Positions 18,296 through 38,517 of a stretch of DNA of 64,000 nt are shown here, one piece after another. Each line of letters starts with the position of its first letter. Position 1 is the first letter of the stretch. The translations under genes and the position numbers were made by a program. This DNA comes from Clostridiaceae bacterium (lineage in GTDB: Bacteria; Bacillota; Clostridia; Lachnospirales; Lachnospiraceae), in assembly GCA_910574345.1 (NCBI GenBank), contig CAJSZV010000011.1, forward strand, positions 62,001-126,000, given 5' to 3'. The notes below the pieces were generated by a model that saw nothing but the letters and a program-made list of their open reading frames with translations, searched no databases and was not told the origin of the DNA.

Positions 18296-18308
18296 ACTAT
18301 TTATAAAA

Positions 18309-19796: not shown

Positions 19797-19798
19797 CT

Positions 19799-20921: not shown

Positions 20922-20943
20922 TTTGCACTCCTTTGTATAAGAA

Positions 20944-22479: not shown

Positions 22480-22499
22480 ATTTACCTCAAAAAAGAACT

Positions 22500-23417
22500 T
22501 TAAGACTTTGCCAAAATTTTATACTTTATAATTCTAACCATATACCAAACCGGCATTTTAACAAAAAACCATATCAAATAAGATATGACACTAAATTTTA
22601 TGTTTTTTCCCCGATTTAAAAATTTAATTCTCATGTATCTGCAGGTTTTATTATACTCACGAAAATTAGTAATTCCCTCTACTATGGGTTTAATCTTAAG
22701 AGATTGACGAATATAATAACAATATCCTTGAAAATTATCCTTATGCCCAACAAGCTCATTAATGCCACTTTGAGTAAGACCTGTAGGCTGATAGTCTGCT
22801 ATATATAGAGATTCATTATACCAACGTATTTTTTTCCCTTCTGCTGCTATTGCATCCCAACATACGCTTTCGGTAACAAAATATTCCCCCTCAAATTCTG
22901 GAAATGGATGTCTTCTCATTATAGATGTTTTATAAATCTCTGCTTTATCGCCCATAAGTCCTAACCTCTTACGTTCAAAATTTGTAGCCTCAATCCACTC
23001 TCCATCCCTTAATTTAGGTCTTCCGCCACATATGGTTCCATCTGGAAGGACCTTCAATCCTGCAACTCCTGCCAGATTATTGTTCCGCAAATTACTTATC
23101 CAATTATTTGCTTTTTCTATAGAATCCTTTGGTAAATAATCATCACTGTCTACGATAAAGAAATATTCACCTCTGGCTATATCAATCCCCTTATTAATTG
23201 CTCTGTGCTTTCCTCCATGTACTTGCTTTATGTAAAAGATATCAAATCTGTCAGTATCAAACTTTGCTACTGCTTCCTCAGTATCATCGAAAGAACCATC
23301 ATCTATAATGATCCATTCGAACTTATAAGAAGTTTGTTCTTTTAAAGATATATATAATCTTTGCAGCAACTGACACCGATTGTAAGTAGCTGTAAAAATC
23401 GTAATAGGAAGTGCCAT
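22500..23417 (-). CDS. GT2 family glycosyltransferase
   Basis: 305 aa. It opens ITIFTATYNRCQLLQRLY and has the donor-site DDG in FEWIIIDDGSFDDTE and the DXD in FIVDSDDYLPKDSIEKA. Inverting GT-A enzyme of the repeat-unit assembly; sugar and linkage not predictable. 20 bp after the preceding GT32 gene start region, same operon. Confidence 0.88.
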   Translation of the reverse strand: MALPITIFTATYNRCQLLQRLYISLKEQTSYKFEWIIIDDGSFDDTEEAVAKFDTDRFDIFYIKQVHGGKHRAINKGIDIARGEYFFIVDSDDYLPKDSIEKANNWISNLRNNNLAGVAGLKVLPDGTICGGRPKLRDGEWIEATNFERKRLGLMGDKAEIYKTSIMRRHPFPEFEGEYFVTESVCWDAIAAEGKKIRWYNESLYIADYQPTGLTQSGINELVGHKDNFQGYCYYIRQSLKIKPIVEGITNFREYNKTCRYMRIKFLNRGKNIKFSVISYLIWFFVKMPVWYMVRIIKYKILAKS

Positions 23418-23427
23418 CTTTATATCC

Positions 23428-24225
23428 TCATTTAAATTTTATTTTTCTTTTTATGTTTTTAATAATTGTTCCTTCTCTTGTATATTGCCTTAATCTATAA
23501 ATATTTCGATACAATCCACATACTGGATTTGCAATTAAAGGCAATACTTTTTTCTGAATCTGCAATTCTTTTTCTCTAATCTTTCTGTCATCTATAGATG
23601 TCCAAGAACCATCGTACCAATGAATACCATGCGTATCTTTTGTTATAATCATCTTTCCAGTCTTATATTCCATTGGACAGAAATAACCGCTTGGCAATAT
23701 TACTGCTCCTGCAACTATCTGCATTTTATCTTTTTTCACATATCCTCTTTCCACAAACCAATCAGTTGTATAACTTGTACATGGTTTAAGATTCAATGAT
23801 CCATCTAGATTTATAAACAATAACTTTAAATATAGATCTCTTAAATTCTTTATTACTTTATGATTTTCAATCGCACCAAATCCTAATCCAGAATTAATAT
23901 TACAGTCCTGCTCCAGGGCAAAGAAAAGATCATTCTGCCTCAAATCATCCAGACTTTTTATCAGTTCAACATCTGTATCTAGATAGAACCCCCCATAACA
24001 AAATATAATGTCTAATCTCGCATAATCGGAAACAAATGCCCACTTTTTATTATCGTATGCTTGTTTTGTATATTGAATCTTATTCACGTCATAATTTAAT
24101 TCATTCCATTCTATAATTTCATAATCCGGACAATTTTTTTTCCAACTCTCAATACATTTCTTTACTTTTTCCGGGAGTTCCCCTTTTCCAAACCAACAAT
24201 AATGAATCTTCTTAGGTATTGGCAT
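23428..24225 (-). CDS. GT32 family glycosyltransferase (capsular/OCH1-like)
   Basis: 265 aa. IPKKIHYCWFGKGELPE at the N-terminus and the DXD block FVSDYARLDIIFCYGGFYLDTDVEL are diagnostic of the GT32 'glycosyltransferase sugar-binding region containing DXD motif' family. Cytosolic transferase for the repeat unit. Confidence 0.9.
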   Translation of the reverse strand: MPIPKKIHYCWFGKGELPEKVKKCIESWKKNCPDYEIIEWNELNYDVNKIQYTKQAYDNKKWAFVSDYARLDIIFCYGGFYLDTDVELIKSLDDLRQNDLFFALEQDCNINSGLGFGAIENHKVIKNLRDLYLKLLFINLDGSLNLKPCTSYTTDWFVERGYVKKDKMQIVAGAVILPSGYFCPMEYKTGKMIITKDTHGIHWYDGSWTSIDDRKIREKELQIQKKVLPLIANPVCGLYRNIYRLRQYTREGTIIKNIKRKIKFK

Positions 24226-24256
24226 TATGCTAATACTCCTTTCTAATGCCTATTTT

Positions 24257-25384
24257 CTATTGTATTTGTAAGCATCTAATATAACGAATTGCCTTAGCAC
24301 TAAAAAAGATAATAAAATTATAATTCACCAGATTAAGAATAGGTTCATTCAATGTCCACAATGCAATACAAATCCCACTAATAATCAAATCATATCTTTT
24401 TATTTTGACAAAATAGTACATAATAATAGTCATAAAAAGCAAAAATAATGCACTAAAAATAGCTCCCCAATTTTGAAGCATAATAGTATAACCAGAATCA
24501 ATATAAAAATAAGAATTCTCGTCTATATGCAGTAAATCTAAATCTACATTTCCTCCTAGTAGGGAAAAACCAAAAATCTTCATTGACTGACTTGTTAGGC
24601 TCAACCTCCAGTTCATCGCCTTATCAAGAACGTGCGAAAAAGATATAATTATATTATTAATACCTTCCGGTAAAATTTCTCCAATAATAGGCACATTTGA
24701 ATTGCCCGCACACTCTGCCAAAAAGAAATTTGTCAAAAAGCAAAAGGGGAAAAATATTATAGTTATTTTTGAGGTTATTAATTTTCTTCCAATTCTGTTT
24801 TTAATTGAAGCACATAATGCAAGAGCAATAAGCGTAATCAAAAGTAATGATCTGCTTGTTGAGACAACTGTAGCAATTACCAAAAAAAACACAAGAATTA
24901 TATAATGAATAGTTTTTAAATTGCACTTTTTGTTGCTTATATATAATAATATTACTATGCTTACCTGTAATCCTAATGTATTATATGATGCCCCTATCCC
25001 AATTATTTGAAATAAAACAAGAAATGAAAATGAACTATAAAATACTAATTTTAACAATTTATCAGTATTAATATTCTCGCAAGCAATCATACATATAAAT
25101 ATAGTAAGGAAACTATAATTTTTAAACGCTCTCCAACTATATACAGAATACATTAGGATGGCAAAATAAACCAAAAACATTTTAAGTGTTATCTTTCTCC
25201 TAACAAAAACAGAAAAAATACCACTCAAATTTGCACCTAACATAATCAATTTAAATTCCGCTCTATATATAGATGAATTTTTTCCCATATAATATAGATT
25301 GATGCCCCACAAAAAAATCATTAAAAAAAACTCATATCTATTTATAACCGATCTCGCTACTAAATTTTTATTATCTGCTTTCAT
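24257..25384 (-). CDS. Wzy-type polysaccharide polymerase
   Basis: 375 aa, about 10 to 12 membrane segments with one larger outside loop (about residues 225-290). No strongly conserved motif, as is usual for Wzy; assigned by size, topology and position among glycosyltransferases and a Wzx flippase. An O-antigen ligase is the alternative. Confidence 0.75.
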   Translation of the reverse strand: MKADNKNLVARSVINRYEFFLMIFLWGINLYYMGKNSSIYRAEFKLIMLGANLSGIFSVFVRRKITLKMFLVYFAILMYSVYSWRAFKNYSFLTIFICMIACENINTDKLLKLVFYSSFSFLVLFQIIGIGASYNTLGLQVSIVILLYISNKKCNLKTIHYIILVFFLVIATVVSTSRSLLLITLIALALCASIKNRIGRKLITSKITIIFFPFCFLTNFFLAECAGNSNVPIIGEILPEGINNIIISFSHVLDKAMNWRLSLTSQSMKIFGFSLLGGNVDLDLLHIDENSYFYIDSGYTIMLQNWGAIFSALFLLFMTIIMYYFVKIKRYDLIISGICIALWTLNEPILNLVNYNFIIFFSAKAIRYIRCLQIQ

Positions 25385-25406
25385 AGGTATATATTCACAA
25401 TCTATT

Positions 25407-26540
25407 TTATTTATTATTTTCTGGAATATATGTATTCTGGTAATATTCTTCTATTACCTTTATTTCTTTTCTCAAATCATATTGGTTAATCACATAATCT
25501 GTTTTCTTCTCTTCGCTTCTAGAAACCGCAGCTTCACAAATTTTATCTTCCCATTCTTTTTTATCTCTCAATGACACATAAGCTACATCACCAGATATAT
25601 TAGTCATCTGCGTAATATGATCTGATAGTATACATTTCAAGCCATTTGCCTGTGCCTCTACTGCTGTAAAAGGAAACCCCTCAAACTCTGAGGACATAAC
25701 AAACACATCCATTGCCGAGTAAAATTCGTTCACATTAGTTATGTTCCCCGTAAAAAGCACATAATTTTCAAGACCTTTTATATGAACTAAACTTTTCAAT
25801 TCCTGTTCCAACTCACCATCACCAATAATCATAAGTAAAAAATTCTTATTTCTGTTTATCAAATCAGGGAGCAACTCTATCAAAAACCTTTGATTTTTCT
25901 GTTTTACCAATCTTCCTACATTTCCAACAACTACTTTTTCCTCTATACAATATTGCTTTCTGATCCTTTTTCGATATGATTCATGATAACGGTACTGATC
26001 TATAAAAATTGCATTATGTATGATCTTGTAACGTTTTGACATCATAAATTTTTCTGTGTATTTACTTCTACCCGCCAAATCTGAACAGGATAATCCTACA
26101 TTTATAGAATTTTCTAAAATACTCTTTAAGAGTAAGCGAAATACTCTATCCAACCATTTCGTAGAGAAATTTCCAGAATTATGCGAATGGGCAATTACAT
26201 TAGAAGTCCTTGCAATTTTCGCTGGAACTGTTCCTGTCAGCAATCCTTTAAAGCTACAGCTATTTACATGTATAGCGTCATAAGGACCTTCTTTTTTGAT
26301 ACACCGATAAACTTCAGCCATTCTTCCCGCCATATTAGACTGTTTCCTGCACAAAAATATCTTACAGCCATATCCAATCGCTTCATCATAGAAATCTAAA
26401 CGTGTTCTGTCATAAACCAACAAGTCAATAGAAAACTTTTCATAATTTATGGTTCTCAAAATATTCATCACAAAGAGTTCATTTCCGCCTACTCCCAGAG
26501 AGCCAACTATAATTAATACCTTTATTTTCCGTCCCATCAC
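25407..26540 (-). CDS. GT4 family glycosyltransferase
   Basis: 377 aa GT-B enzyme. The N-terminal VGSLGVGGNELFVMNIL donor loop, VGRLVKQKNQRFLIE, and the C-terminal EX7E region SSEFEGFPFTAVEAQANG are visible. Retaining transferase. Its start overlaps the phosphonopyruvate decarboxylase stop by 4 bp, coupling it to the phosphonate genes. Confidence 0.9.
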   Translation of the reverse strand: MMGRKIKVLIIVGSLGVGGNELFVMNILRTINYEKFSIDLLVYDRTRLDFYDEAIGYGCKIFLCRKQSNMAGRMAEVYRCIKKEGPYDAIHVNSCSFKGLLTGTVPAKIARTSNVIAHSHNSGNFSTKWLDRVFRLLLKSILENSINVGLSCSDLAGRSKYTEKFMMSKRYKIIHNAIFIDQYRYHESYRKRIRKQYCIEEKVVVGNVGRLVKQKNQRFLIELLPDLINRNKNFLLMIIGDGELEQELKSLVHIKGLENYVLFTGNITNVNEFYSAMDVFVMSSEFEGFPFTAVEAQANGLKCILSDHITQMTNISGDVAYVSLRDKKEWEDKICEAAVSRSEEKKTDYVINQYDLRKEIKVIEEYYQNTYIPENNK

Positions 26541-27670
26541 TTTTTTACATCTTTCCCATTTAAATATTCCATAAAGCTCTTCTTATTCTCCATCGCATTT
26601 ATTGTTGGTCTTCCCAAATTCTCTCTTGCTCCAATAGCGCATTTCACTTCAACAAAACTCAATCCCTCATATTCTTTTACCCTTTGCAGTTCTCTATCCA
26701 ATTCTTCAAAATTTTTTGCCCTATTAACATATGAGTAGCCACAAGCCTTAGCAATCGCAGGTAAATCGATTTTTTCGGCAACTGTCGGCATTCCCCCAAC
26801 TGTTTCATGTGCCCCGTTGTTAATTACGATATGAACTAAATTATGCGGATTATTAGCGCCCAACACTGCCATAGAGCCCATGTGCATTAAAACAGCACCG
26901 TCTCCATCTATACACCATACCTTTTTGTTCGGTTTACTAAGTGCTATCCCAAATGCAATGGAAGAGGCATGCCCCATGGAGCCAACAGTCAAAAAGTCAT
27001 ATTTATGGCTTTCTCCATTGGCATCACGGATTTCAAAAAGTTCCCTGCCTGCCTTTCCTGTTGTCGCTATTACCGGATCTTCTCCAGATATCTTAACAAT
27101 ATGCCGGATAATTTCTTCACGTACCATTTCATTCTCATTTTTGTATTCCGTCTTTCCTTCATAAGAAAGTGCACCCTTGCGTATAATAAACGCTGCATTT
27201 TTGCCCATTGCAAGCAATGTCCTGAAATCTGCCATTATACCAGCTGTTTCCTCTTCTGTTGTCTTCCTATCTATTATAAAAGACTTAATATCCATATCCT
27301 CCAACAGCTTTACGGTTATTTCCCCCTGATAGATATGCTGCGGTTCATCATAAACTCCCGGCTCTCCACGCCATCCGATAATAAAAAGAACGGGTATTGC
27401 ATATACCTTATCATTAAGCAGAGATGCTACTGGATTTATTATGTTTCCCTCTCCGCTGTTCTGCATATAAACTACTGGTATTTTTCCAGTGGCAAGGTGA
27501 TAACCTGCCGCAATCGCTGTGCAGTTTCCCTCATTCGCCGCAATGATATGATGTTTTGAATCAATTCCATAATAATCCATAAGGTAATCACATAATGCCT
27601 TTAATTGAGAATCCGGTATTCCTGTATAAAAATCAGATCCTATAATTCTCACTAAGCTTTCCGCTTTCAT
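26537..27670 (-). CDS. Phosphonopyruvate decarboxylase
   Basis: 377 aa, thiamine-diphosphate dependent. It decarboxylates 3-phosphonopyruvate to phosphonoacetaldehyde, the step that pulls the unfavourable PEP mutase reaction. Visible: the DFYTGIPDSQLKAL opening of the family, catalytic-site Glu in AANEGNCTAIAAGYHLATG, and the thiamine-diphosphate/Mg motif GDGAVLMHMGSMAVLGANNPHNLVHIVINNG (part of residues 255-285). Sulfopyruvate decarboxylase is the nearest alternative, excluded by the neighbouring PEP mutase. Confidence 0.93.
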   Translation of the reverse strand: MKAESLVRIIGSDFYTGIPDSQLKALCDYLMDYYGIDSKHHIIAANEGNCTAIAAGYHLATGKIPVVYMQNSGEGNIINPVASLLNDKVYAIPVLFIIGWRGEPGVYDEPQHIYQGEITVKLLEDMDIKSFIIDRKTTEEETAGIMADFRTLLAMGKNAAFIIRKGALSYEGKTEYKNENEMVREEIIRHIVKISGEDPVIATTGKAGRELFEIRDANGESHKYDFLTVGSMGHASSIAFGIALSKPNKKVWCIDGDGAVLMHMGSMAVLGANNPHNLVHIVINNGAHETVGGMPTVAEKIDLPAIAKACGYSYVNRAKNFEELDRELQRVKEYEGLSFVEVKCAIGARENLGRPTINAMENKKSFMEYLNGKDVKK

Positions 27671-27678
27671 AATTTTAA

Positions 27679-28815
27679 TTATCCCTTCTCAAGAATCCGG
27701 CTGTACAATTCAAAAATCGCATCCATACTTAATGACACAGGATTATTCTTTAGTCTTATGGAATTTACTGATCTTGCTAATATTTCCAAAGTCCTGTCAT
27801 TGTATTTTGGTATTTCTAATTCCAATTTTCCAAAAATCTTCTGAAACCCCTCCGCTCCGGTCTTGGCACTGTCATACCCCATAATAACCGCCAGTTTATA
27901 AAACATGCTTGATAAATATTCCTTCCCTCTTGGATCCACACATTTATCAATATTAGCAATCATATACGGCCAAATTTCCCGGACGCACAAGGCTGCTCCG
28001 TGCCCATGTGCTATACCATACATACTAGTTAGTTTATAACACATAGCATGTCCAGCTGTTGTCTGTGCAATATTAATGGCTTTCCCAGCAAGATGAGAGG
28101 CAAATAGCATCTCCCTGCCCGCTTCATAGTCACCTTTTAGATAGCCGTCCAAATTAGCAAGTATTTTTTTAATCGCTTTCTGCGAATATTCCATACTCTC
28201 ATTTGTTGAATAAATTGACCAAAAAGATTCTATTCCATGACATAATGCATCCATTGCCGTCGATTTTCTTTGATATATAGGTAATGTTTTCAAAACAGAT
28301 GGATCCATCACAACCGCATCAGGGATGCAGCTGTCATTTGTAACGGACTGCTTTTCTCCTTTATAGTAAATGACCGCAAACTGAGTGGCTTCGCTTCCTG
28401 TTCCAGCCGTTGTAGGAATCGCCAGTAATTTTATATCATTCGGGATAATCGTTTGCTGCAGATAATTTTTACTATGATCCATATCAAAAAAGAGCTTAAT
28501 GCATTTTGCCACATCAATGGCGCTGCCTCCTCCTACTGCAGCAATCAGATCATATTCCCCTTGGCAAAAAAGGTTAATACCGCTGACTACTGATTCATAT
28601 AATGGATTGGAGCTGAAATCAGAAAAGCATACCACCGCTATTTTCAAGTCTTTCTCGATTGACTGAAAATAGTTTTTTATCATCAAATATGGCCAGGAAC
28701 TATCACAAACTAGAAAAATTCTGGAAATTTGATTATCCTTTATATATTCTGTCAACTGGGAATACATTTTATCGGCAATCAAAATCTTCTGCTTCACCAT
28801 TGATAATTCCTCCAA
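27679..28815 (-). CDS. Phosphonoacetaldehyde reductase (Fe-dependent ADH family)
   Basis: 378 aa group-III alcohol dehydrogenase. It has the nucleotide-binding GGGSAIDVAKCIK, the conserved TTAGTGSEAT, and metal-ligand residues in ALCHGIE, QTTAGHAMCY and GIAHGHGAAL. In phosphonate clusters this family (PhpC/FomC-like) reduces phosphonoacetaldehyde to 2-hydroxyethylphosphonate. No aminotransferase (AEP route) is present in the locus, so hydroxyethylphosphonate is the likely product. It lies 8 bp after the mutase gene. Confidence 0.87.
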   Translation of the reverse strand: MEELSMVKQKILIADKMYSQLTEYIKDNQISRIFLVCDSSWPYLMIKNYFQSIEKDLKIAVVCFSDFSSNPLYESVVSGINLFCQGEYDLIAAVGGGSAIDVAKCIKLFFDMDHSKNYLQQTIIPNDIKLLAIPTTAGTGSEATQFAVIYYKGEKQSVTNDSCIPDAVVMDPSVLKTLPIYQRKSTAMDALCHGIESFWSIYSTNESMEYSQKAIKKILANLDGYLKGDYEAGREMLFASHLAGKAINIAQTTAGHAMCYKLTSMYGIAHGHGAALCVREIWPYMIANIDKCVDPRGKEYLSSMFYKLAVIMGYDSAKTGAEGFQKIFGKLELEIPKYNDRTLEILARSVNSIRLKNNPVSLSMDAIFELYSRILEKG

Positions 28816-28823
28816 CCTGATTA

Positions 28824-30836
28824 TTAGCTTTCTACTGGTATTAGTGTTATTATATCTTTAATTGACATACACAAATCGTCGCATTCTTTTGCACGATGGT
28901 TTTCCAAAATAATTTTGGCTGCATTCTGCATAGCCGGAAATCCTGTTCTTGTTAATTGATTTGCATATATAACAATATTTACTCCTCTTTCTTTAAACTC
29001 CTCTTCTGTTACAGAGTTAAAAGATGTTGGCACAACAATAAGCAAGGTGCTTTTATTCTTTCCACGAAATTTTGCTACAAACTCAAAAATCTCATCAGGC
29101 TCTTTTTTTCTGCTGTGGATCATAATCGCATCCGCCCCTGCTTTTACAAACGCAAAGGCTCTTTTCAGGGCATCCTCCATTCCTCTTTCAAGAATCAGGC
29201 TTTCTATTCTTGCACAAATCATGAAATCCTGTGTTTTTTGTGCCCGCTTCCCTGCAGCAATTTTAGCGCTGAAGTTTTCTATAGAATCCTGTGTCTGTAT
29301 TTCATCTGTTCCGAAAAGAGAATTCTTTTTCAGTCCTGTTTTATCTTCAATAATAACCATAGATACACCCATACGCTCCAGGGTTTTAACTGTATAAACA
29401 AAATGTTCCGTCATTCCCCCTGTATCACCATCAAAAATAATAGGCTTTGTTGTAACTTCCATAATATCGTCGATCGTACGAAAGCGGGAGGTCATGTCTA
29501 CCAGCTCAATATCCGGTTTTCCCTTCGCCGTGGAATCACACAAAGAGCTTATCCACATAGCATCAAATTGGCGGGATTGGCCATTCTGATATACAACTGT
29601 TTTTTCCGCAATCAGCCCGGTGATCCCGCTGTGTGCCTCAATAGCGGATATTGTACCTTTCAATGCAATTGTTTTCTTTAGTCTTGCACGCCGTATATCC
29701 GGAAGAGACAGATCTGATCTTGCCCTGTTTTCCAGTTCCTGATATCTCTGTTCGCCGGAATAGGGATATTCTACTAATATACCCCCATAAGAAGCTAATA
29801 AAGATATTACTTCATCTCGAACGGGTTTCTGAAATCCTTCCTTCCAATCATCTCCGTGCACAACATAAGCCGGCCGGTATTTTTCTAAATTCTCTTTATA
29901 ACTAAGAGTCCTCTGCTCCACTACCCTATAAACCCCGTTTATATTCTCAAACAATGCCTTGCGTTCATCATATGGAAGTAATGGGAAACGTTTATATGTA
30001 ACCACTGCTTCATCAGAAAGAACACCGATCATTAATTTTCCTAAACGCGATGCCTTTTGAATAATTGCCATATGACCGCTGTGCAGCATATCGGCTGAAA
30101 AACACATATATACTATTTTAGACTCAATATCTTTCAATCTTTTTCGTACAATGGCCAGATCATCGGAATCATCTACTTCACTACAAAACAGATTCCTAAT
30201 ATCCAATGGATAGAGTTTACATTTATCTGAAATTTCATTAAAAGCATTCTCTGCGTAACACTTTGCTTTCCCATGTTCACAAAATTCCGTAATCTTACTA
30301 ATCCATTTATTCCATTCATCCTTTTTTAACATATACATTGGCTGGGCAGCCATTACGTCATCAAAAAATTCAGTACCTATTTGGGCGATATGTGCATTTT
30401 TTATAACTGCTTTGAAATCCTTTTCCGGCAGCATTTGTGTAGAGCTTACAATCATACAACTTTGAGAATTCTTGATAAGAATATCTATCACTTGATTTTC
30501 AAATACTAAATCACCGTGAAGCAGTAAAATATCTTCATCTTTTAAATATTCTCTCGCGCAATAGATGGAATATATATAATTTGTTTCTTTATATAACGGA
30601 TTTTTCACAAACGTAATGTGTATCGGCAAATCAAGGCTTTGGCAGTAACTAATAAGAACACTGTCAAACATTCCAGTCGTTATTACCGCTTCGCGAATGC
30701 CAACTTCTGAAAGTTGTCTCAGCTGCCTGCTTAATATTGTCTCTTTACTTGAAATTTCTGTCATACATTTCGGATGTTCCGAAGTCAAAACACCCATCCG
30801 GCTTCCTATTCCGGAATTTAAAATTAATGCTTTCAC
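28824..30836 (-). CDS. pepM: Trifunctional NTP transferase - cytidylyltransferase - PEP mutase
   Basis: 670 aa with three modules. Residues 1 to about 225: LicC/MobA-like NTP transferase (LNSGIGSRMGVLTSEHPKC, HGDL), similar in type to the PntC phosphonate cytidylyltransferase. Residues about 238-370: a second nucleotidyltransferase with the HSGH motif at 252-255, of the TagD/RfaE kind. Residues about 385-670: phosphoenolpyruvate mutase with the catalytic EDKTGLKKNS at 497-506, DGDTGG at 469-474 and ARIES. It makes phosphonopyruvate and probably also activates the finished phosphonate with CTP. A mutase with one N-terminal nucleotidyltransferase is common; two are unusual. Confidence 0.9.
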   Translation of the reverse strand: MKALILNSGIGSRMGVLTSEHPKCMTEISSKETILSRQLRQLSEVGIREAVITTGMFDSVLISYCQSLDLPIHITFVKNPLYKETNYIYSIYCAREYLKDEDILLLHGDLVFENQVIDILIKNSQSCMIVSSTQMLPEKDFKAVIKNAHIAQIGTEFFDDVMAAQPMYMLKKDEWNKWISKITEFCEHGKAKCYAENAFNEISDKCKLYPLDIRNLFCSEVDDSDDLAIVRKRLKDIESKIVYMCFSADMLHSGHMAIIQKASRLGKLMIGVLSDEAVVTYKRFPLLPYDERKALFENINGVYRVVEQRTLSYKENLEKYRPAYVVHGDDWKEGFQKPVRDEVISLLASYGGILVEYPYSGEQRYQELENRARSDLSLPDIRRARLKKTIALKGTISAIEAHSGITGLIAEKTVVYQNGQSRQFDAMWISSLCDSTAKGKPDIELVDMTSRFRTIDDIMEVTTKPIIFDGDTGGMTEHFVYTVKTLERMGVSMVIIEDKTGLKKNSLFGTDEIQTQDSIENFSAKIAAGKRAQKTQDFMICARIESLILERGMEDALKRAFAFVKAGADAIMIHSRKKEPDEIFEFVAKFRGKNKSTLLIVVPTSFNSVTEEEFKERGVNIVIYANQLTRTGFPAMQNAAKIILENHRAKECDDLCMSIKDIITLIPVES

Positions 30837-31930
30837 TGAGACCTCCTATTATAGATATCCATAAGCTTCTTTACTTCTGCTGCAATATCATATCCATGGG
30901 CTTGTATCTGTTTTTTTGCCTTTTCACAAGCCTCCGTTCTGTCACAGGGACAATAATCTTTCATAATGATATCAGCCCAATACTTTTCACCTTTATCAAG
31001 TTCCAAAAAATTTACTAACTCTGTCACTCCTGCCTCTTTTGGCACATTGGCAGATGCATAACACAGCAGACCTGTGGCCTGTGCCTCAATCAGTGCCAGA
31101 CCAAGACCTTCCCAAATGGAAGGAAAAAGAAATATATCCATACATTGGAGCAGTTCTGCATTATCTGTGCGCATACCCAGCATACATACATTATTCTCTA
31201 TTCCAAGAAAACTCACTTCCCCCTCTATTTCTCCCCTGAGTTCTCCATCTCCCACTAATAAAAGAACTGCGTCTTTTCGCATTTTCCAGATTTCAAAGAA
31301 GACTTTTACTAAAAAAGAATGATTTTTGGGAGCATACATTTTTCCTATTGTTCCTACGACAAACTTGTTTTTTAGATTTAAAGCTTCTCTGTAGTTATTT
31401 CTTATATCTGGATAAAATGAAAACCTTTCTGTATCTATTGCATTATTTAATACTTGATACTCACTTCCCTGAAACAACCATTCTCCAGCCTGTTTTGAAC
31501 ACGCCAGAGCTTTTGTATAAGATTTTCTAAACATCCCCCATAACACCTTGTGTAGCAGCTCATAGCCACTTTGTGTTGTATGCACATGTGCAATCCGTAC
31601 CGGAATCCCTACTTTTCTTGCGGCCAAAAGCTCAATTGCCATAGTAGCGCTATTACCATTAACATGGATCACATCATATCTTTTTGCTTTCAATAACTGT
31701 TCAAGATTATATGCATATGAATAAGGATTTTTCTTCCTTTTTCCAAGACAATAATAGACAGATCCATTTTCCTCTAACTCTTCAAGAAGCCTTTTATCCG
31801 GTACACTGGTTGATGCAAAATCTATCTGAAAATACTCTTTATCTATAAAGCGGTAATAATTCATCATTACAGTGGCAAGACCGCCACAGGAAACAAAATC
31901 GGTGCATATGACAATAAGAATTTTTTTCAT
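30833..31930 (-). CDS. GT4 family glycosyltransferase
   Basis: 365 aa GT-B enzyme: SCGGLATVMMNYYRFI donor loop, HVNGNSATMAIELLAARK, GTIGKMYAPKNHSFLVKVF, and PSIWEGLGLALIEAQATG with the EX7E residues. Resembles EpsF-type transferases of Gram-positive capsule loci. It overlaps the mutase start by 4 bp. Confidence 0.9.
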   Translation of the reverse strand: MKKILIVICTDFVSCGGLATVMMNYYRFIDKEYFQIDFASTSVPDKRLLEELEENGSVYYCLGKRKKNPYSYAYNLEQLLKAKRYDVIHVNGNSATMAIELLAARKVGIPVRIAHVHTTQSGYELLHKVLWGMFRKSYTKALACSKQAGEWLFQGSEYQVLNNAIDTERFSFYPDIRNNYREALNLKNKFVVGTIGKMYAPKNHSFLVKVFFEIWKMRKDAVLLLVGDGELRGEIEGEVSFLGIENNVCMLGMRTDNAELLQCMDIFLFPSIWEGLGLALIEAQATGLLCYASANVPKEAGVTELVNFLELDKGEKYWADIIMKDYCPCDRTEACEKAKKQIQAHGYDIAAEVKKLMDIYNRRSQ

Positions 31931-31958
31931 AATATCTTCTCATCCTTTAAGTCACTTA

Positions 31959-33116
31959 TCATTTCTTTATGCCGCTAACCTCCAAAATTCTCTTGCAACT
32001 TTCCCCTTTCTGATATGTATATACCAAATCCCTGATACGTTTTCTTTCATTGGAGTATCGGTCGATATTTCTCGCAAACTCATCGATCCAACACCAAAAT
32101 CCTTCTTTATCATATATTCTTTTTCCTGGCATATATTCTTTGGCATTTTTAAATACAAAACCTCTTTTTTCTTTGTATTCCTCATAATCCGGAATCACAA
32201 AGGCTTCGGGTTTATCTCGCAGCAAAAACTGTAATGAAACAGAACTATAATCTCCAATAAGTCCATTAATCTGCCCCATCAAGTCGTATAAATAATATCC
32301 CTCCCTTTCAAACTCTTCATGAGAAAGCACTTTGAAATGAGAGTATATCCGCTTTTTATATTCAGAAGTTTTCTGGCTTGGATGCAACTTTACTATCAGC
32401 AGACAATTTATATTCTTCATCTGTTCATTTATTTCACTGTAATCACTTTCTTCGAATAATGGAACTAGTTCTTCCTGTCGGGAATCGTTATAGCCCAAAT
32501 AATCTGACTGTCTGAATGTCGGGGCCCATAACAACACTTTATCATACTCGCTAAAATCATATATTCTGCGAGGCTTCAACATTCTGTCTACCATAGGTTC
32601 ACTGGCAACTACCATCTTTTCTTTTGAACACATATATGCCTTTGCCAATATTGGAACATATAGAGGTGATGTAGCCAGCATATAGGTAAAGTAATTCTCA
32701 TTTCCGTTATTGATTTTGGTTAAAGCACCAATCGTTTTGTAATTTGCAATTCCATGCTGCAGATGAAAAACAATCTGGTTATTAGATGGAATAATCGGCA
32801 ATTGGCCTGCTGTATAAAATACATGTCCGGCCCTCAAAAACCATTTTACTGCTTGTATATGCGTGACATATTTCACGTTCTTTTCTTCTGTTCCAAAATA
32901 CTCTTCTGATTCAACGGCACAGATTATTTTATTCTTTATATTATATCTATTATCAATAAGGTACTGCAGTAATGGCGCCAGATTATATGTAATTCCTTTA
33001 TTCCCGGAATAAAGCAAAATAAGATTATCTTTTTTTTGACACCATTTGTTCACTGCAGATATACCCTTAAAAACAGTACTTTTCAGAATTTTTTTTATCA
33101 TAGTATTACGCAACAT
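31959..33116 (-). CDS. TagB/TagF-like CDP-alcohol phosphotransferase (candidate phosphonate transferase)
   Basis: 385 aa. Family features: HLQHGIANYKTIG (residues 118-130; catalytic His and the HGxxxK-type motif), LLWAPTFRQS, LLIVKLHPSQ and GLIGDYSSVSLQFLLRDKP near residue 295. Relatives transfer glycerol-phosphate, ribitol-phosphate or similar groups from CDP to a glycan. In a locus that makes and CMP-activates a phosphonate but has no glycerol- or ribitol-phosphate genes, I infer that it transfers hydroxyethylphosphonate to the repeat unit. Possible later start at residue 6 (ATG). Confidence 0.8.
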   Translation of the reverse strand: MLRNTMIKKILKSTVFKGISAVNKWCQKKDNLILLYSGNKGITYNLAPLLQYLIDNRYNIKNKIICAVESEEYFGTEEKNVKYVTHIQAVKWFLRAGHVFYTAGQLPIIPSNNQIVFHLQHGIANYKTIGALTKINNGNENYFTYMLATSPLYVPILAKAYMCSKEKMVVASEPMVDRMLKPRRIYDFSEYDKVLLWAPTFRQSDYLGYNDSRQEELVPLFEESDYSEINEQMKNINCLLIVKLHPSQKTSEYKKRIYSHFKVLSHEEFEREGYYLYDLMGQINGLIGDYSSVSLQFLLRDKPEAFVIPDYEEYKEKRGFVFKNAKEYMPGKRIYDKEGFWCWIDEFARNIDRYSNERKRIRDLVYTYQKGESCKRILEVSGIKK

Positions 33117-33149
33117 AGTTTATCTATAAAAATTCCTTTTCTCTTATTT

Positions 33150-33659
33150 TTATGCCAAATTATTATCCATAAGGCTATCTACAAGAACTGCAAATTTTTT
33201 ATTGAATATTTCATTATTATTTTGAGCTTTTATTTGTAATTCAGATATAATGCTTTCATAATTACATATCACTTTTTTCAAATCAGATATCGTTTCTATT
33301 ACTATAATGCTCTTCTGCTTTTCGAATACTGCCTTTGTAAATTCAAGCTGATGGTTGTTCACATGCTCCCCAAACTTCTTCTGACGAGGCACTACAATGG
33401 GGATTTTTCCTATTTGCAATGGCATAATAAAGCTGGATGGTCCACCATGTGTAATTACAATCCTCGCTTTAGATACATATCCAACCATCTCCTCATATGA
33501 AAATAATTTTTTCCACGTGCAATATGCTGGTTTATACGTACAGTATCCAGTCTGTATTATGACATTTTCCTTAATTACCTTATCCTTTTTTAACAGGTCA
33601 ACCTCTTCTATCAATCGATTAAACGGCTGCTCATGTGTTCCTACTGAAACAAAAATCAT
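33150..33659 (-). CDS. Alg13/PssE-like glycosyltransferase catalytic subunit
   Basis: 169 aa, GT28 C-terminal domain only: IFVSVGTHEQPFNRLIEEV at the N-terminus and ITHGGPSSFIMPLQIGKIPIVVPRQKKFGEHVNNHQLEF. It needs the Alg14-like partner encoded just upstream to make one membrane-associated transferase, usually adding the second sugar to the undecaprenyl-linked primer. Confidence 0.92.
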   Translation of the reverse strand: MIFVSVGTHEQPFNRLIEEVDLLKKDKVIKENVIIQTGYCTYKPAYCTWKKLFSYEEMVGYVSKARIVITHGGPSSFIMPLQIGKIPIVVPRQKKFGEHVNNHQLEFTKAVFEKQKSIIVIETISDLKKVICNYESIISELQIKAQNNNEIFNKKFAVLVDSLMDNNLA

Positions 33660-33688
33660 TTTTTATCTCCTATCACAGTCCATCTATA

Positions 33689-34150
33689 CTAAAAAATACC
33701 TCCAAAATTTATTGCCTTTGGATAAACCTTTTTCATCTCTTCCCATTCAACAATCATTTTATCAACTATAGGATAGACTATCTTACCTGTTAGTGTCGGC
33801 TTATCAATGCGGTCAAATACCTCTATGTAAATCAATTTTGCTCCCAAAAGCTTTCCCAAATAGAAAAAAGGTACCGCCACGGCTGCTCCAGATGAAATAA
33901 TCAAATCTGGTCTTTCTTTTCTTAACACCTTCCATGCTAATCCTGTATTAATGATTAAGGCTTTTAAACTTCGGTTCGTGGGAAAAAAGCAAGGGTACAC
34001 TTTCTCACTTTTAAGCAAACTTCTTGCATCCTCTTTATCAAAAGTAACCCAGAACCGTTCTTTATCCTTCCAAAATGGCCTTAACATATATAGATGTGCC
34101 AAATGACCTCCTGAGGATCCCACTAAACATACTTTCATATTCTCACCCAC
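33689..34150 (-). CDS. Alg14/PssD-like glycosyltransferase membrane subunit
   Basis: 149 to 153 aa. VCLVGSSGGHLAHLYML and LIISSGAAVAVPFFYLGKLLGAKLIYIEVFDR are the family hallmarks. The GTG at 34150 overlaps the recombinase-like gene by 8 bp; the ATG at 34138 is the alternative start. The overlap couples the first sugar-adding step to the recombinase-like leader gene. Confidence 0.92.
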   Translation of the reverse strand: MGENMKVCLVGSSGGHLAHLYMLRPFWKDKERFWVTFDKEDARSLLKSEKVYPCFFPTNRSLKALIINTGLAWKVLRKERPDLIISSGAAVAVPFFYLGKLLGAKLIYIEVFDRIDKPTLTGKIVYPIVDKMIVEWEEMKKVYPKAINFGGIF

Positions 34151-34976
34151 ACCATTCCATCATCAATTCCTCAGCATACCTCTTCATACTGCTCTTCAAA
34201 TCCTTCGGCGTGACCTCTTTCTTAATACCCGCCAGCTTTCGATATTTATCAAAGATATTGGTAACCATTTTCATGGATAAGGGTTTTCCTAATTTTGACA
34301 GAAACATCCATTCATCATATCCTGCCCCCCATTCAAAGTACTCATGGTCGTCCAGCCACATCACCATCTGTTCCTGAAGGGTCTTGGAAAATAAATGCAC
34401 GGAATATTCCTTTCCATTTTTCTTTTTTATCGTAAGAATTGCTTTTTTCCGGTTATAATCTTTTACCTGCATCCTCAAGAGCTCACTTACTTCAATCCCA
34501 TGATAAAAAAGAAGCCCCATCATAACCTGATCCCGCATGCAGACCCTTTTTCGGAAATCGCTGCCCAGTTCTCCATACTCCCGGATAATTGCCTGGAAAA
34601 ACGCGTCAATCTCTTTTTTGGTAAGAAGTGCATTTTTCTGTGAATCTTTCTTTATACATATACTTTTTAGTGGTGTGGCCTTCTCTATAATCCCCTGGGC
34701 TGATAAATATGCCAAATAATAATTAAATACTTTCTGTTTCCTGTATAGAGTGGATGGCTGACGCTTTTTCTCCAATGAAAGATATTCCAGATAAGCCTCC
34801 ATTTTCCCCTCCCACTTATCCCTTTCAGCAGAAGAATCTGAAGACAACCATTCATGCAAATGCTCCAGATCCAGACGATATGCTTTAGCAGTCCGCTCAT
34901 CCAGTCCTCTTTGAACTACCTGACGGTTGATAAAACCATCAATCAATTGGTTTGAATTCGATTGGCTTACCACCAA
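34143..34976 (-). CDS. Tyrosine-recombinase-fold protein without catalytic residues
   Basis: 277 aa, first gene of the polysaccharide operon. A SAM-like core-binding domain (residues 1 to about 105) and the integrase fold (about 115-277) are clear. The GLR-x-SEL box reads GIEVSEL with Glu at 162 where the catalytic Arg belongs. The second box (normally HxLR) reads K258-DL-K261, and the protein ends before the region with the nucleophilic Tyr. It should bind a core-type site but not cut it. It starts at TTG 34976 or GTG 34973 behind AAGGGAG. The candidate invertible segment lies 76 bp upstream. Confidence 0.8.
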   Translation of the reverse strand: MVVSQSNSNQLIDGFINRQVVQRGLDERTAKAYRLDLEHLHEWLSSDSSAERDKWEGKMEAYLEYLSLEKKRQPSTLYRKQKVFNYYLAYLSAQGIIEKATPLKSICIKKDSQKNALLTKKEIDAFFQAIIREYGELGSDFRKRVCMRDQVMMGLLFYHGIEVSELLRMQVKDYNRKKAILTIKKKNGKEYSVHLFSKTLQEQMVMWLDDHEYFEWGAGYDEWMFLSKLGKPLSMKMVTNIFDKYRKLAGIKKEVTPKDLKSSMKRYAEELMMEWCG

Positions 34977-35041
34977 AATGCATCTCCCTTCTGCTTTCTT
35001 TTTACAAAATAATTTTAATTATTTGTAGTTATTAGAGCTTT

Positions 35042-35074
35042 AAATTTCGCAGATTTCTATAATCTGCGAAATTT
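35042..35074. repeat. 33-bp palindrome = left core site of the candidate invertible segment
   Basis: Two exact 14-base arms (35042-35055 and 35061-35074) around TCTAT. The inner 11-base arms TTTCGCAGATT / AATCTGCGAAA with a 5-bp centre have the layout of a tyrosine-recombinase core site. It would also fold as a hairpin in the operon leader. Confidence 0.8.
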
Positions 35075-35115
35075 CCTTCTTTTCCCCGGAAATTCAAGGC
35101 TTTTCCTATCCCAGG

Positions 35116-35236
35116 TGACCACAAACCTGACCATAAATATTTTCGTGCTATCTTCCATCTCTCTTTTTCGTATTGCAGCCATACCGAAAACCCTTCTGAA
35201 TTTTCACTGGATTTTGACCATAAATCTGACCAGAAA
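35116..35236 (+). promoter_or_regulatory. Four TGACCAnAAA boxes in two 12-bp-period pairs
   Basis: TGACCACAAA (35116), TGACCATAAA (35128), TGACCATAAA (35215) and TGACCAGAAA (35227). Each pair has a 12-bp period and the pairs are 99 bp apart. They lie inside the invertible segment upstream of its promoter and look like regulator-binding direct repeats. The regulator is unknown. Confidence 0.55.
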
Positions 35237-35312
35237 AGCCGATATTTCCCCCGATTTGGGCCATTTTTAGCCAATAATCCCTTGAATTTACAAAAAATCC
35301 TGAAAATTAGTA

Positions 35313-35341
35313 TGGCTTTTTTGTGTGACATGTGGTAAAAT
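35313..35341 (+). promoter_or_regulatory. Extended -10 promoter inside the invertible segment
   Basis: TGG directly before TAAAAT (35336-35341), with only a weak -35 (TGGCTT at 35313-35318). It reads rightward, toward a strong palindrome and no gene except a short frame at 35351-35533. After inversion it would map near 35139-35167 and read into the recombinase-like gene and the operon. I see no good minus-strand promoter in the present orientation. Confidence 0.5.
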
Positions 35342-35540
35342 GACGTCGATATGAACATAGCTGAAAAAATATACGTCCTTACTGAGCCTGAAAACAGCCT
35401 TATAAGTCTTTCGCAGATTATAGAAATCCAAGAATCAAATAAGAGAGGGATTCGATATCCGCAATCATATAAAGTAAACAATATTAGCGGAGCTTGTGTA
35501 TACATAAAAATGGGGCTGTCGGGAAATAGGTAGTTCCAAA

Positions 35541-35580
35541 CAGGGGGAGGTATGATTCGTACGAATCACACCTCCCCCTG
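35541..35580. terminator. 40-bp palindrome, probable terminator/insulator
   Basis: Arms 35541-35560 and 35561-35580 pair at 19 of 20 positions (a G-U wobble on the minus-strand RNA). Rightward transcripts from the invertible promoter would meet it and then a short T-run (35585-35589). Confidence 0.6.
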
Positions 35581-35591
35581 AAACTTTTTGC

Positions 35592-35627
35592 AAAAAAGAA
35601 AAAAGATGGCTAACGACAACCATCTTT
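35592..35627 (-). terminator. Rho-independent terminator, minus strand
   Basis: AAAGATGG (35602-35609) and CCATCTTT (35620-35627) with a T-rich tail on the minus strand (35592-35604). It would stop readthrough from the right before it reaches the invertible segment, isolating the switch. Confidence 0.7.
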
Positions 35628-35722
35628 CTCCCCGTTTCATGTTATAATGAAACTCTGCTAAAACAAGATTATTACAACAACTTTTTTGAGTTTCGGCAAC
35701 AGAAAATTAACTTCAGTTTTTA

Positions 35723-35960
35723 CTAATTGGGTTTACCCGACTTGCTCTCAATTTTCTTTACAAGAACATCCTCCCCCAAAATCTCCACACTTTCCGGCAC
35801 CCGGACATACTCAAGGCTCTCACAGCCATTGACCGTATAATTTCCGATACTTTTTACTCCGTCAGGAAGATAGAGGCCGGTCAGTTTCTTATTCTGATAA
35901 AAGGCCTGACTGGCAATCTCCGTAATCCCTTCAGGAACCACAATCTTTTTCTCAGCAAAG
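35723..35960 (-). pseudogene. BspA-type leucine-rich-repeat (LRR_5) fragment
   Basis: About 75 codons in the pattern IVVPEGITEIASQAFYQNKKL, LPDGVKSIGNYTVNGCESL, VRVPESVEIL, the 23-residue repeat of BspA-like surface proteins. The frame continues upstream to 36067, but from about 35960 it is only the complement of the toxin-antitoxin remnant, so that N-terminus is spurious. No signal peptide. A relic joined to unrelated sequence. Confidence 0.65.
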
Positions 35961-35965
35961 TAAGA

Positions 35966-36115
35966 ATGGAACGTCGAATTCCTTTTGAAATTACTGCGGA
36001 TCCCTTTTTCTCTGAAAAAAATATGCAGCAGTTGGATAATGCCATTCAGCAGATAAAGAACGACCAAGTGGTTGTTAAGTCCATGAAGAAATTGGAGGAT
36101 ATGGAATGTGAATAA
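35966..36115 (+). pseudogene. RelB/DinJ-family antitoxin, C-terminal remnant
   Basis: 49 codons, too short to be the full antitoxin: RRIPFEITADPFFSEKNMQQ then a helical tail ending VVKSMKKLEDMECE. This is the typical C-terminal half of DinJ/RelB antitoxins that pairs with a YoeB/RelE toxin. The N-terminal DNA-binding part is replaced by the LRR fragment. Overlaps the toxin remnant by 8 bp, as in intact modules. Confidence 0.6.
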
Positions 36116-36191
36116 AATTACCTTTGCTGATAATGCCTGGGAAGAGTATTTATACTGGCAATCCCAGGACAGAAAAACACTAAGTTACTGA
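36108..36191 (+). pseudogene. YoeB/Txe toxin, N-terminal fragment
   Basis: GTG-initiated 27-codon frame: NKITFADNAWEEYLYWQSQDRKTL, the conserved N-terminus of YoeB mRNA-interferase toxins (about 85 aa when whole), then a stop at 36189-36191. The catalytic C-terminus is gone, so it is non-functional. Confidence 0.7.
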
Positions 36192-36257
36192 TAAAGTCAT
36201 TGTAAATGGAATATAAAAGAAACTCCAGAAGTGCATATGACAGGTGTTGTCTGGACT

Positions 36258-36290
36258 ACAAAAAATGCGCCCGTTTTCGGACGCATTCTT
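36258..36290 (-). terminator. Terminator of the two-component operon
   Basis: Stem 36264-36273 / 36278-36287 (AATGCG..CCG with a TTTT loop, one wobble) followed on the minus strand by TTTTTTG. It is 43 bp after the response regulator stop. Confidence 0.8.
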
Positions 36291-36332
36291 CTTGCTGCTC
36301 TGAATGATTCTGTCAGCAGTATAGTAAAAAAC

Positions 36333-37022
36333 CTACATTTTAAAGCGGTAGCCTACTCCCCATATGGTCTCGATATACTGGGGCTTAGCCGTGTTGAACT
36401 CAATCTTTTCTCTTATCTTTTTAATGTGCACGGTTACTGTAGCAATATCCCCGATGGATTCCATATCCCATATCCTGGAAAATAGCTCTTCCTTTGTATA
36501 AACATGATTAGGATTCTGGGCCAAAAACGTAAGCAGGTCGAATTCTTTCGTAGTAAAGTTTTTCTCTTCCCCGTTGATCCACACCCGTCTGGCAGTCTTA
36601 TCAATCTTCAGGCCCCGGATCTCTATGATCTCATTATCCGGCACGCCGCTTCCAATAAGCCGTTCATAGCGGGCCAGGTGGGCCTTTACCCTGGCCACCA
36701 TCTCGCTGGGGCTGAAAGGCTTGGTGATGTAATCGTCTGCACCCAGGCCCAGACCCCGGATCTTGTCTATATCCTCCTTCTTGGCAGATACCATAATAAT
36801 AGGGGTGTTCTTTACCTCCCGCACCTTCCTGCAGATCTCAAATCCGTCCGCTCCGGGAAGCATGAGATCCAGAATAAATAAGTCATACTCCTCCTGCAAA
36901 GCCCGGTGAAGTCCCTGCTCCCCGTCATTTTCGATCTCTACTTCAAAACCGCTGAGTTCCAGATAATCCTTCTCCAGCTCCGCAATACTTTCTTCATCTT
37001 CAATGATTAAGATTCTCTTCAT
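36333..37022 (-). CDS. OmpR/PhoB-family response regulator
   Basis: 229 aa. Receiver domain with the acidic pair IEDEES, phospho-acceptor Asp in LFILDLMLPGADG (Asp 53), Thr/Ser switch in IIMVSAKKE and the KPF lysine. The C-terminal winged helix has FTTKEFDLLTFLAQNPNHVYTKEELFSRIW. Overlaps the kinase gene by 23 bp. Target genes unknown; the nearby invertible segment with direct repeats is one possibility. Confidence 0.95.
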   Translation of the reverse strand: MKRILIIEDEESIAELEKDYLELSGFEVEIENDGEQGLHRALQEEYDLFILDLMLPGADGFEICRKVREVKNTPIIMVSAKKEDIDKIRGLGLGADDYITKPFSPSEMVARVKAHLARYERLIGSGVPDNEIIEIRGLKIDKTARRVWINGEEKNFTTKEFDLLTFLAQNPNHVYTKEELFSRIWDMESIGDIATVTVHIKKIREKIEFNTAKPQYIETIWGVGYRFKM

Positions 37023-38517
37023 GATATATAACCTCCTGGTATTTTCTCAACACGAAATGGATCTCTGTCCCGATTCCCTCCTTGCTTGTAGCCCATATCC
37101 TGCCGCCGTGATCCTCGATAATCTTGCGGACAATAGAGAGACCGATCCCGCTTCCCCCTTTGGAAGAATTGCGCGAGGAATCCGTGCGGTAAAAACGGTC
37201 AAATATATTAGGCAAATCTTTGGCGGCAATTCCCCGCCCGTTATCCTCAATCTCCACCTGAATGAAGTCTCCCACATCCTTAATGCGGATATTGATGATC
37301 CCTCTCTTCTTGTCCAGGTATTTTACCGAATTACTGATAATATTGTTGACCACCCGCTTCATCTGTTCCGCATCAGCGATAACGACCACATCTTCATCTA
37401 CATAATTGAAATAGCCAAGCTCAATATTGTTGGAATCCAACTCAAGGCCGACTTCCTCTACACAGTCTTTGAAATAACTGGCAACATTGATCTTGGAAAA
37501 TGTATAGGGAATCTTATTGGTGTCAATCTTCGAATAAAAAGTCAGTTCATCAATAAGACGGTCCATGTCATTGGCTTTATTATATATGGTACGGATGTAT
37601 TTATCCAGCTTTTCCGGTGAAGAGGCCACTCCGTCCAGAATTCCCTCCACATACCCCTTGATGGCAGTGATGGGAGTCTTCAGATCATGGGAAATATTGC
37701 TGATCAGCTCCTTGCTCTCTTTGTCATACTGAACCTTTTCTTCCGTCGTCTCCTTCAGACGCATACGCATCTCTTCAAAGTCCTGGCACAACTGGCTGAT
37801 CTCATCGTCATTATCCATATCCACGTCCAGGCTGAAATCCAGATTGCCGTTCTTAATCTCGTTGGTAGCCTGCTGAAGTTTATTAAGGGGGGATAAAAGA
37901 GCCTTGTAAACCCAGCCTGTCAGAACCACTCCCGTCAGCAGAAGAATCATGATCCCGGAAAACAGTATCTCAAGGAACATGGACTTTACCTCAGGGATAA
38001 AATCATCGACGCTGGATATGATAAATACGCTGCCCTCTTCCCCGTCGCTGTACCGGAAATCCACCTGCTTGATCAGATGCTGGGTATCCCCGTCCAGGTA
38101 GATTCCGCCTTCCAAAAAATTGTTGCCCGCCTCGTCATAATCAGGAAGGTGCTGATATATCTCCGAAGATTCATCCTCCTTGCCGGAGTAAATAAAGACA
38201 TGGCCTTTTCGGACGATAAGATATGCATACTTTTGCTTCAGTTCCTGGTTAATCGTATCCAAAAAAGCCGGATCGGCAAAGCTGTCCGGGTCTGTGCTTA
38301 TCTTCTCCCTTATGGCCTTCTGGCTGCCCTGAGTCAAACGGTTGAATATCTGCATGGAATTGCCTGAAAGCAAATCCACCTGCTCGGCTAAACCATAAGA
38401 TTCACGGAAGGCCCTCATCTGATATGTACTCAGAAGGCTGAAAGCCAGATAAATCAATAACATAGGCACCAATGTTATGGTAATAAACGCGATTCCCAGC
38501 CGGGTTCGGAGCTTCAT
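37000..38517 (-). CDS. HAMP-domain sensor histidine kinase
   Basis: 505 aa. N-terminal membrane helix (about 8-30), extracytoplasmic sensor of about 150 residues, second helix (about 182-204), HAMP (about 205-258), H-box NISHDLKTPITAIKGYVEGI, N-box NNIISNSVKYLDKK, and G-boxes DNGRGIAAKDLPNIFDRFYR and GGSGIGLSIVRKI. Cognate to the response regulator that follows. Confidence 0.95.
   Translation of the reverse strand: MKLRTRLGIAFITITLVPMLLIYLAFSLLSTYQMRAFRESYGLAEQVDLLSGNSMQIFNRLTQGSQKAIREKISTDPDSFADPAFLDTINQELKQKYAYLIVRKGHVFIYSGKEDESSEIYQHLPDYDEAGNNFLEGGIYLDGDTQHLIKQVDFRYSDGEEGSVFIISSVDDFIPEVKSMFLEILFSGIMILLLTGVVLTGWVYKALLSPLNKLQQATNEIKNGNLDFSLDVDMDNDDEISQLCQDFEEMRMRLKETTEEKVQYDKESKELISNISHDLKTPITAIKGYVEGILDGVASSPEKLDKYIRTIYNKANDMDRLIDELTFYSKIDTNKIPYTFSKINVASYFKDCVEEVGLELDSNNIELGYFNYVDEDVVVIADAEQMKRVVNNIISNSVKYLDKKRGIINIRIKDVGDFIQVEIEDNGRGIAAKDLPNIFDRFYRTDSSRNSSKGGSGIGLSIVRKIIEDHGGRIWATSKEGIGTEIHFVLRKYQEVIYHEENLNH

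Follow-up and report, generated by a model that had tools for sequence, protein, structure and literature searches.

Polysaccharide operon and its first gene

The window analysed here is a stretch of 64,000 nucleotides. It contains an operon of 17 minus-strand frames of at least 100 amino acids, from 34976 down to 17597, which is the gene number given in the original prediction. The first gene (34143 to 34976, minus strand) encodes a Phage_integrase-like protein with a tyrosine-recombinase fold that lacks the catalytic residues. The 16 frames after it (17597 to 34150, minus strand) make up the polysaccharide/phosphonate part of the operon. Twelve of the 17 frames were annotated with Pfam and two with NCBIfam only. 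Eleven of the 12 had Pfam matches, and 24257 to 25384 had none. The matches included Alg14, a TPP enzyme, an Fe-ADH, glycosyltransferases, a PEP mutase that carries nucleotidyltransferase domains, a glycerophosphotransferase, and a flippase-like polysaccharide-synthesis protein. With NCBIfam, PssD scored above the cut-off and PssE below it. By NCBIfam alone, 20196 to 20921 is glycosyltransferase-like, and 19799 to 20203 had no NCBIfam match.

The PEP mutase with its nucleotidyltransferase domains, the Fe-ADH, and the TPP enzyme lie together at 26537 to 30836 (minus strand). These genes suggest that the operon may make a phosphonate-bearing polysaccharide. Of the nine sister loci compared, four (L036, L038, L039, and L043) contain DNA related to this stretch.

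Aligned with XerD, the first-gene protein has Glu in place of the catalytic Arg and Lys-Asp-Leu-Lys in place of His-x-x-Arg, and it ends too early to include the Tyr. All 24 proteins compared, this one and 23 relatives, have Glu at Arg-I and Lys-Asp-Leu-Lys at the box (Arg-Asp-Leu-Lys in one). The relatives have 13 to 28 residues after the box, where the rows from our own genome stop at the match end and the chains extend by up to 7 residues more. In the C1 integrase described below, for comparison, the Tyr lies 33 residues past the box Arg. A structure model of the protein keeps the recombinase fold (pLDDT 82). Its Foldseek matches include XerA, XerD, lambda Int, and Tn1549 Int, with modest TM scores by query length (0.38 to 0.57 among the 50 matches listed). 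A contig search with the window recombinase alone returned 64 pattern stretches and no relative.

The genome encodes ten first-gene paralogs with 52 to 100% identity. The next gene or genes scanned after each paralog include a polysaccharide-type enzyme (10 of 10). Paralogs adjoin all six switch loci described below. Four of the ten paralog loci have no recognisable pair of sites, so the dead gene needs no switch. At an E value of 1e-30 or less, the family was found in three of 26 genomes of the genus, our own included. We propose that the first-gene protein most likely binds DNA and regulates either the switch or the operon.

Inverted repeat and recombination sites

A putative invertible segment of 377 bp, including both 20-bp repeats, lies at 35052 to 35428. 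We infer its inversion from a sister locus and from relatives. The inverted arms (35052 to 35071 and 35409 to 35428) are complementary at 20 of 20 positions with a spacing of 337 nt. They are the longest perfect inverted pair within 34000 to 37000 (gap of 50 to 1,000). In 200 order-1 Markov shuffles of the same stretch, the longest pair had a maximum of 15 and a mean of 10.8. The perfect 20-bp repeat, 337 bp apart, was part of the original prediction and exceeds every shuffle, and a chance origin is thus ruled out. The next-longest inverted pairs across the whole window are 14 bp (gap of 50 to 1,500). The window locus therefore has inverted repeats flanking a segment, as an inverton does.

The proximal, operon-side recombination site (35045 to 35071) reads TTTCGCAGATT-TCTAT-AATCTGCGAAA. 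It contains an 11-bp arm, a 5-bp centre, and a second 11-bp arm. The distal recombination site (35409 to 35435) reads TTTCGCAGATT-ATAGA-AATCCAAGAAT, with an 11-bp inner arm and an imperfect outer arm. The outer arm is identical to TTTCGTGGATT at 9 of 11 positions, and an imperfect distal outer arm is also present at all five sister loci. The TCTAT and ATAGA centres are reverse complements, and the predicted geometry of an 11-base arm and a 5-bp centre holds at both sites. It has the 11-bp inverted arms and the 5-bp crossover of Tn1549/Tn916-type sites. Viral contigs searched with the proximal site gave 0 matches. The segment also contains two GGTCA-N6-TGGTCA pairs on the minus strand. Pair 1 (35215 to 35231) is a candidate arm-type integrase site, and pair 2 (35116 to 35132) has one mismatch.

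Promoter motif, hairpins, and leader element

The segment contains an extended -10 motif, TGTGGTAAAAT (35331 to 35341, plus strand; TGG-TAAAAT at 35333 to 35341). It points away from the operon as assembled, and its position is conserved in the six loci of our own genome. Scanning 34900 to 35750 for -35 and -10 consensus elements revealed no promoter on either strand, with an average of 2.7 in shuffles. The case for a promoter therefore rests on the -10 motif and its conservation. The predicted outward promoter stands as a motif at 35336 to 35341 that reads away from the operon, but not as a call of the consensus scan. The motif may act as a promoter in the window segment.

A strong hairpin lies outside the distal site at 35541 to 35580, with folding z scores of -7.3 and -7.75 on the two strands. 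A second, terminator-like hairpin lies at 35592 to 35627 (minus strand; z of -3.3). Read on the minus strand, it is followed by a U-tract and would therefore halt transcripts heading toward the operon. The two-component genes at 36333 to 38517 are on the minus strand, in the same direction as the operon, and the second hairpin would bar their transcripts from it. A simple terminator scan called neither hairpin, and its sole call was the proximal site (35042 to 35074). Both hairpins had been predicted to be insulating terminators. Both fold, but the first has no U-tract directly after it on the plus strand, and the scan called neither. The claim is better put as insulation by the second hairpin against minus-strand transcripts, that is, those running toward the operon. 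Nearby, a 114-amino-acid frame with leucine-rich-repeat-like text (35723 to 36067, minus strand) is perhaps the remnant of a surface-protein gene.

A conserved leader element, ATAACTACAAATAAT (35007 to 35032, minus strand), lies between the proximal site and the first gene of the operon. It contains a short dyad. With up to two mismatches, the element ATAACTACAAATAAY had 26 matches in the genome versus 46 for its reversed control, which was counted jointly over mismatch classes. Since the control exceeds the real count, weight is placed only on the five matches with up to one mismatch. All five are upstream of dead-recombinase genes, and two are within the C1b repeat. The element occurs in the window at 35007 to 35032, and at C16, C1b, and C19 it likewise precedes the dead genes.

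Six putative switch loci in the genome

A search of the 5.6-Mb draft genome for the arm pattern, with any centre allowed, gave 21 exact matches, every one of them within six loci. These were the window locus, C1a (C1:77550-78978), C1b (C1:104493-105524), and loci on C8, C10, and C16. The paired centres were identical inside each locus (6 of 6), and none were identical between loci (0 of 15). The C1a and C1b centres differ by a single base. The GGTCA-N6-TGGTCA motif, with up to one mismatch, had 14 matches in the genome. All were inside the segments of the six loci, with two per segment copy. In every one of the six loci, 185 to 197 bp separate the first arm pair from the distal edge. The outward extended -10 was 85 to 88 bp from the distal end in 6 of 6, and this constant place agrees with the OFF state predicted for the window. 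Five of the six segments (the window and four others) resemble C1a minus its integrase gene. Contig C65 of a second genome, G205, contained one more C1a-like segment without the integrase gene. Each of the six segments directly precedes a polysaccharide-type operon and its first gene. Hairpins were seen by eye near several of the distal sites.

A private 5-bp centre at each locus would keep the switches separate. Tn916-type integrases tolerate unlike crossover bases. Given this tolerance and the one-base difference between C1a and C1b, the private-centre rule may fail.

The exact arm-pair motif was found in six of 200 genomes, our own included. Of these, G111 and G060 contained the integrase segment. 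G145 and G109 had no such integrase within the 12 to 16 kb examined, and G015 had no inverted repeat in the two 3-kb loci examined.

Candidate integrase

The C1a segment is 1,429 bp and contains an integrase gene (C1:77734-78912) between its two arm pairs. The integrase keeps R226, H330, R333, H356, and Y366, which are invariant in 4 of 4 and which we take to be the catalytic residues. Its best solved relatives are 6en0, 6emy, and 6emz, all Tn1549 Int. It is the only close family member found in the genome, which is 97% complete. The 24 other integrase matches had E values of at least 3e-18 and 24 to 44% identity over part of the query. An AP2 (arm-binding domain) match was found in one of three integrases scanned, below the Pfam cut-off, and it lends weak support to an N-terminal arm-binding domain. 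The core arms and arm pairs are common to the window and C1a segments, so the C1 integrase may act in trans from its own contig. This Tn1549-type enzyme appears to be the best candidate for the invertase, and its relatives are encoded in segments that occur in either orientation. The trans-acting integrase, the private centres, and the dead leader protein go beyond the original prediction, which named no invertase.

Orientation in the assemblies

The window locus was assembled in a single orientation. At C1b, one left flank with its site continues once with the forward end of the segment and once with the reverse complement of the far end. The reversed far end is 76 bp, including the 20-bp site, and an N lies between the copies. 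We read C1b as an assembly chimera that may have merged reads of both orientations. It may instead be a true rearranged duplication.

In G205, one contig breaks off precisely at a site with a TCTAT centre, next to a dead recombinase gene. Another breaks off precisely at such a site next to a hairpin (by eye). The two contigs probably flank a single locus. If so, the segment between them was left out of the assembly, as expected for a mixed population.

Integrase segments in relatives

A scan with four integrases gave at least 549 relatives, and the best 80 were kept. Flanking inverted repeats were scored at 65 of the 80 integrase loci, 12 were classed as having none, and 3 were at contig edges. 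The 12 scored 8 to 11 under a threshold that was set without a shuffle control, and L113 is doubtful among the 65. Of 42 close segments, 40 have an arm pair (up to two mismatches) at one end and 41 have one at the other. Among the integrase-bearing segments, 16 of the 42 close ones and 8 of 26 distant ones showed the outward -10 pattern. Control counts for close and distant segments were 5 and 1 inward, 1 and 1 in the flank, and 4 and 1 inside the gene. The outward -10 is present in only part of these segments, so their ON and OFF labels, which presume a promoter 5' of the integrase, are partly by analogy.

L150 and L152 are paralogous loci in one assembly. Their segments (1,431 bp) are 95% identical, and their flanks are 92% identical over 2,523 bp and 94% identical over 248 bp. 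Compared with the segment, the flanks align in the opposite orientation, and the breakpoints fall at the repeats. The alignment of the assembled loci shows an inversion between these two paralogs of a relative.

The integrase segments of L163, L164, L165, L167, and L168, from records labelled as five different genera, share one repeat and one length. All five lie about 350 to 450 bp from a methylase frame, presumably Erm-type. This sharing suggests a recent transfer.

Neighbouring genes were surveyed in 69 segments, the 65 above and four loci found earlier. A dead recombinase was on the promoter side in 1 of these and on the other side in 5. L097 is an extra other-side case that falls outside the distance rule.

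Proposed mechanism and alternatives

We consider it likely that 35045 to 35435 is an invertible promoter segment, OFF in the window, that would be flipped in trans by the Tn1549-type C1 integrase. The originally predicted invertible promoter is supported by the L150/L152 inversion, by the C1b junction in both forms, and by the presence of all shared parts in the window copy. Switching at the window locus itself is predicted from its shared parts. The C1 integrase would bind the 11-bp core arms and probably also both GGTCA-N6-TGGTCA pairs. Strand exchange at the 5-bp centre would then flip the segment. With the segment ON, transcription from the extended -10 would cross the proximal site and enter 34143 to 34976 and the polysaccharide operon. 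With the segment OFF, it would run toward the hairpin at 35541 to 35580. Because the centre differs from locus to locus, a single enzyme could act on all six with little exchange between loci. The dead recombinase-fold protein, as the first product of the operon, may regulate the switch or the operon.

A wider reading is more speculative, and we hold it only tentatively. It states that one Tn1549-type integrase, itself in an invertible segment, may run six polysaccharide switches with private centres. Each ON switch would yield a dead recombinase that acts as a locus-specific regulator, binding recombination sites or operon leaders and helping to set which polysaccharide is made.

Several other explanations were weighed against the trans-acting switch. 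The segment could be a locked relic that was once invertible, with the operon now permanently OFF or under another promoter. The single assembled orientation, the imperfect distal outer arm, and the four paralogous operons that carry a dead recombinase gene with no recognisable switch would all fit a relic. We consider it unlikely, since both 20-bp arms, the centres, the arm pairs (one mismatched), and the -10 are kept at conserved spacing, and C1b, whose distal outer arm is likewise imperfect, shows both forms of its left junction. The segments could also be integrase-less, non-autonomous mobile elements that mainly insert, with inversion as a side reaction. The kinship of the integrase to conjugative-transposon integrases, the five segments that look like C1a minus its gene, and the alike repeats and segment lengths in five genera (L163, L164, L165, L167, and L168) are what such elements could leave. 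The sites are inverted, not direct, however, a polysaccharide-type operon starts with its first gene immediately downstream of all six segments, and hairpins (by eye) lie near several distal sites. We regard this explanation as quite improbable.

The remaining alternatives concern the enzyme. A host Xer or another integrase could invert the window segment while the C1 integrase serves only its own, and the 24 partial integrase matches besides C1a leave candidates for this. The window shares its core arms and arm pairs with C1a, and the arm-pair motif is found only in the six segments, which makes a different enzyme quite doubtful. The adjacent recombinase gene at 34143 to 34976 would be the usual suspect, as in many local phase switches. 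It has the position and the tyrosine-recombinase fold, and its paralogs are beside all six switches. It is not the catalytically complete recombinase that a local tyrosine invertase would place beside the segment, since 24 of 24 relatives lack Arg-I, the His-x-x-Arg box, and room for the Tyr, and similar switches in other genera lack the gene (L099 and L100). We consider it very improbable as the invertase and, given the missing residues, reject it. Homologous recombination over 20 bp is an unlikely mechanism.

Comparison with known systems

Variation of several surface polysaccharides is best known from Bacteroides. Mpi is a serine recombinase, and this one enzyme serves many sites. The Bacteroides capsule involves several polysaccharide operons, stochastic promoter inversion, and regulators at operon starts, and UpxY prevents premature termination (PMC7315117). 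Our loci resemble these capsule switches (Mpi; UpxY/UpxZ) in their several polysaccharide operons, putative invertible promoters, and a first gene proposed to encode a regulator. They differ in that the first gene encodes a recombinase-fold protein without catalytic residues and not a UpxY-type antiterminator. In the window this gene is Phage_integrase-like, and its counterparts at the other nine loci belong to the same family. The wider reading above is likened to UpxY/UpxZ logic, built here from a disarmed recombinase.

The sites of Tn1549 Int are imperfect inverted repeats of 11 bp on either side of a 5-bp crossover (PMC5871717). The C1 integrase is kin to this Tn1549/Tn916 family (PDB 6EMZ and 6EN0; PMC5871717), and the site geometry is alike. 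Unlike in Tn1549/Tn916, the gene here lies next to an operon, between two sites in inversion arrangement, and its sites recur in five segments that lack an integrase gene. Inverton group 139 is linked to invertase group 35 (tyrosine recombinase/integrase) and contains 33 invertons, 32 of them from Clostridia (PMC11892184). The orientation of one member, from Clostridium sp. D5, shifts across passages (PMC11892184). Our loci are likened to this group and may belong to the same family. Private centres and dead recombinases are present here and are not mentioned for group 139 in the available part of that paper. Resistance genes under invertible promoters occur inside integrative elements of Bacteroidales (PMC8748976). 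The putative invertible promoters here are comparable, and the passenger is a polysaccharide operon, not a resistance gene. No description of this system was found in the portions of the literature searched, which says little beyond that search.

If the proposal is true, a Clostridia-type bacterium would vary several surface polysaccharides by one enzyme and interchangeable sites. The six loci make a natural set of recombination centres for the study of mutual compatibility. Inactivated recombination enzymes seem to have been turned into operon leaders.

TnpB-like neighbours of integrase segments

In the survey of 69 segments, 7 had a TnpB-like gene on the promoter side and 12 had one on the opposite side. 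A TnpB/Cas12f-like gene adjoins the integrase switch at L099 (9622-11061), at L100 (5681-7039), and at 17 further loci. Their RuvC-III stretch can be aligned to TnpB/Cas12f. Judged by eye on an alignment of the neighbours, the Asp of both the RuvC-I and the RuvC-III motif is missing in 19 of 19. With these residues gone, the neighbours look like nuclease-dead TnpB regulators, which we liken to TldR.
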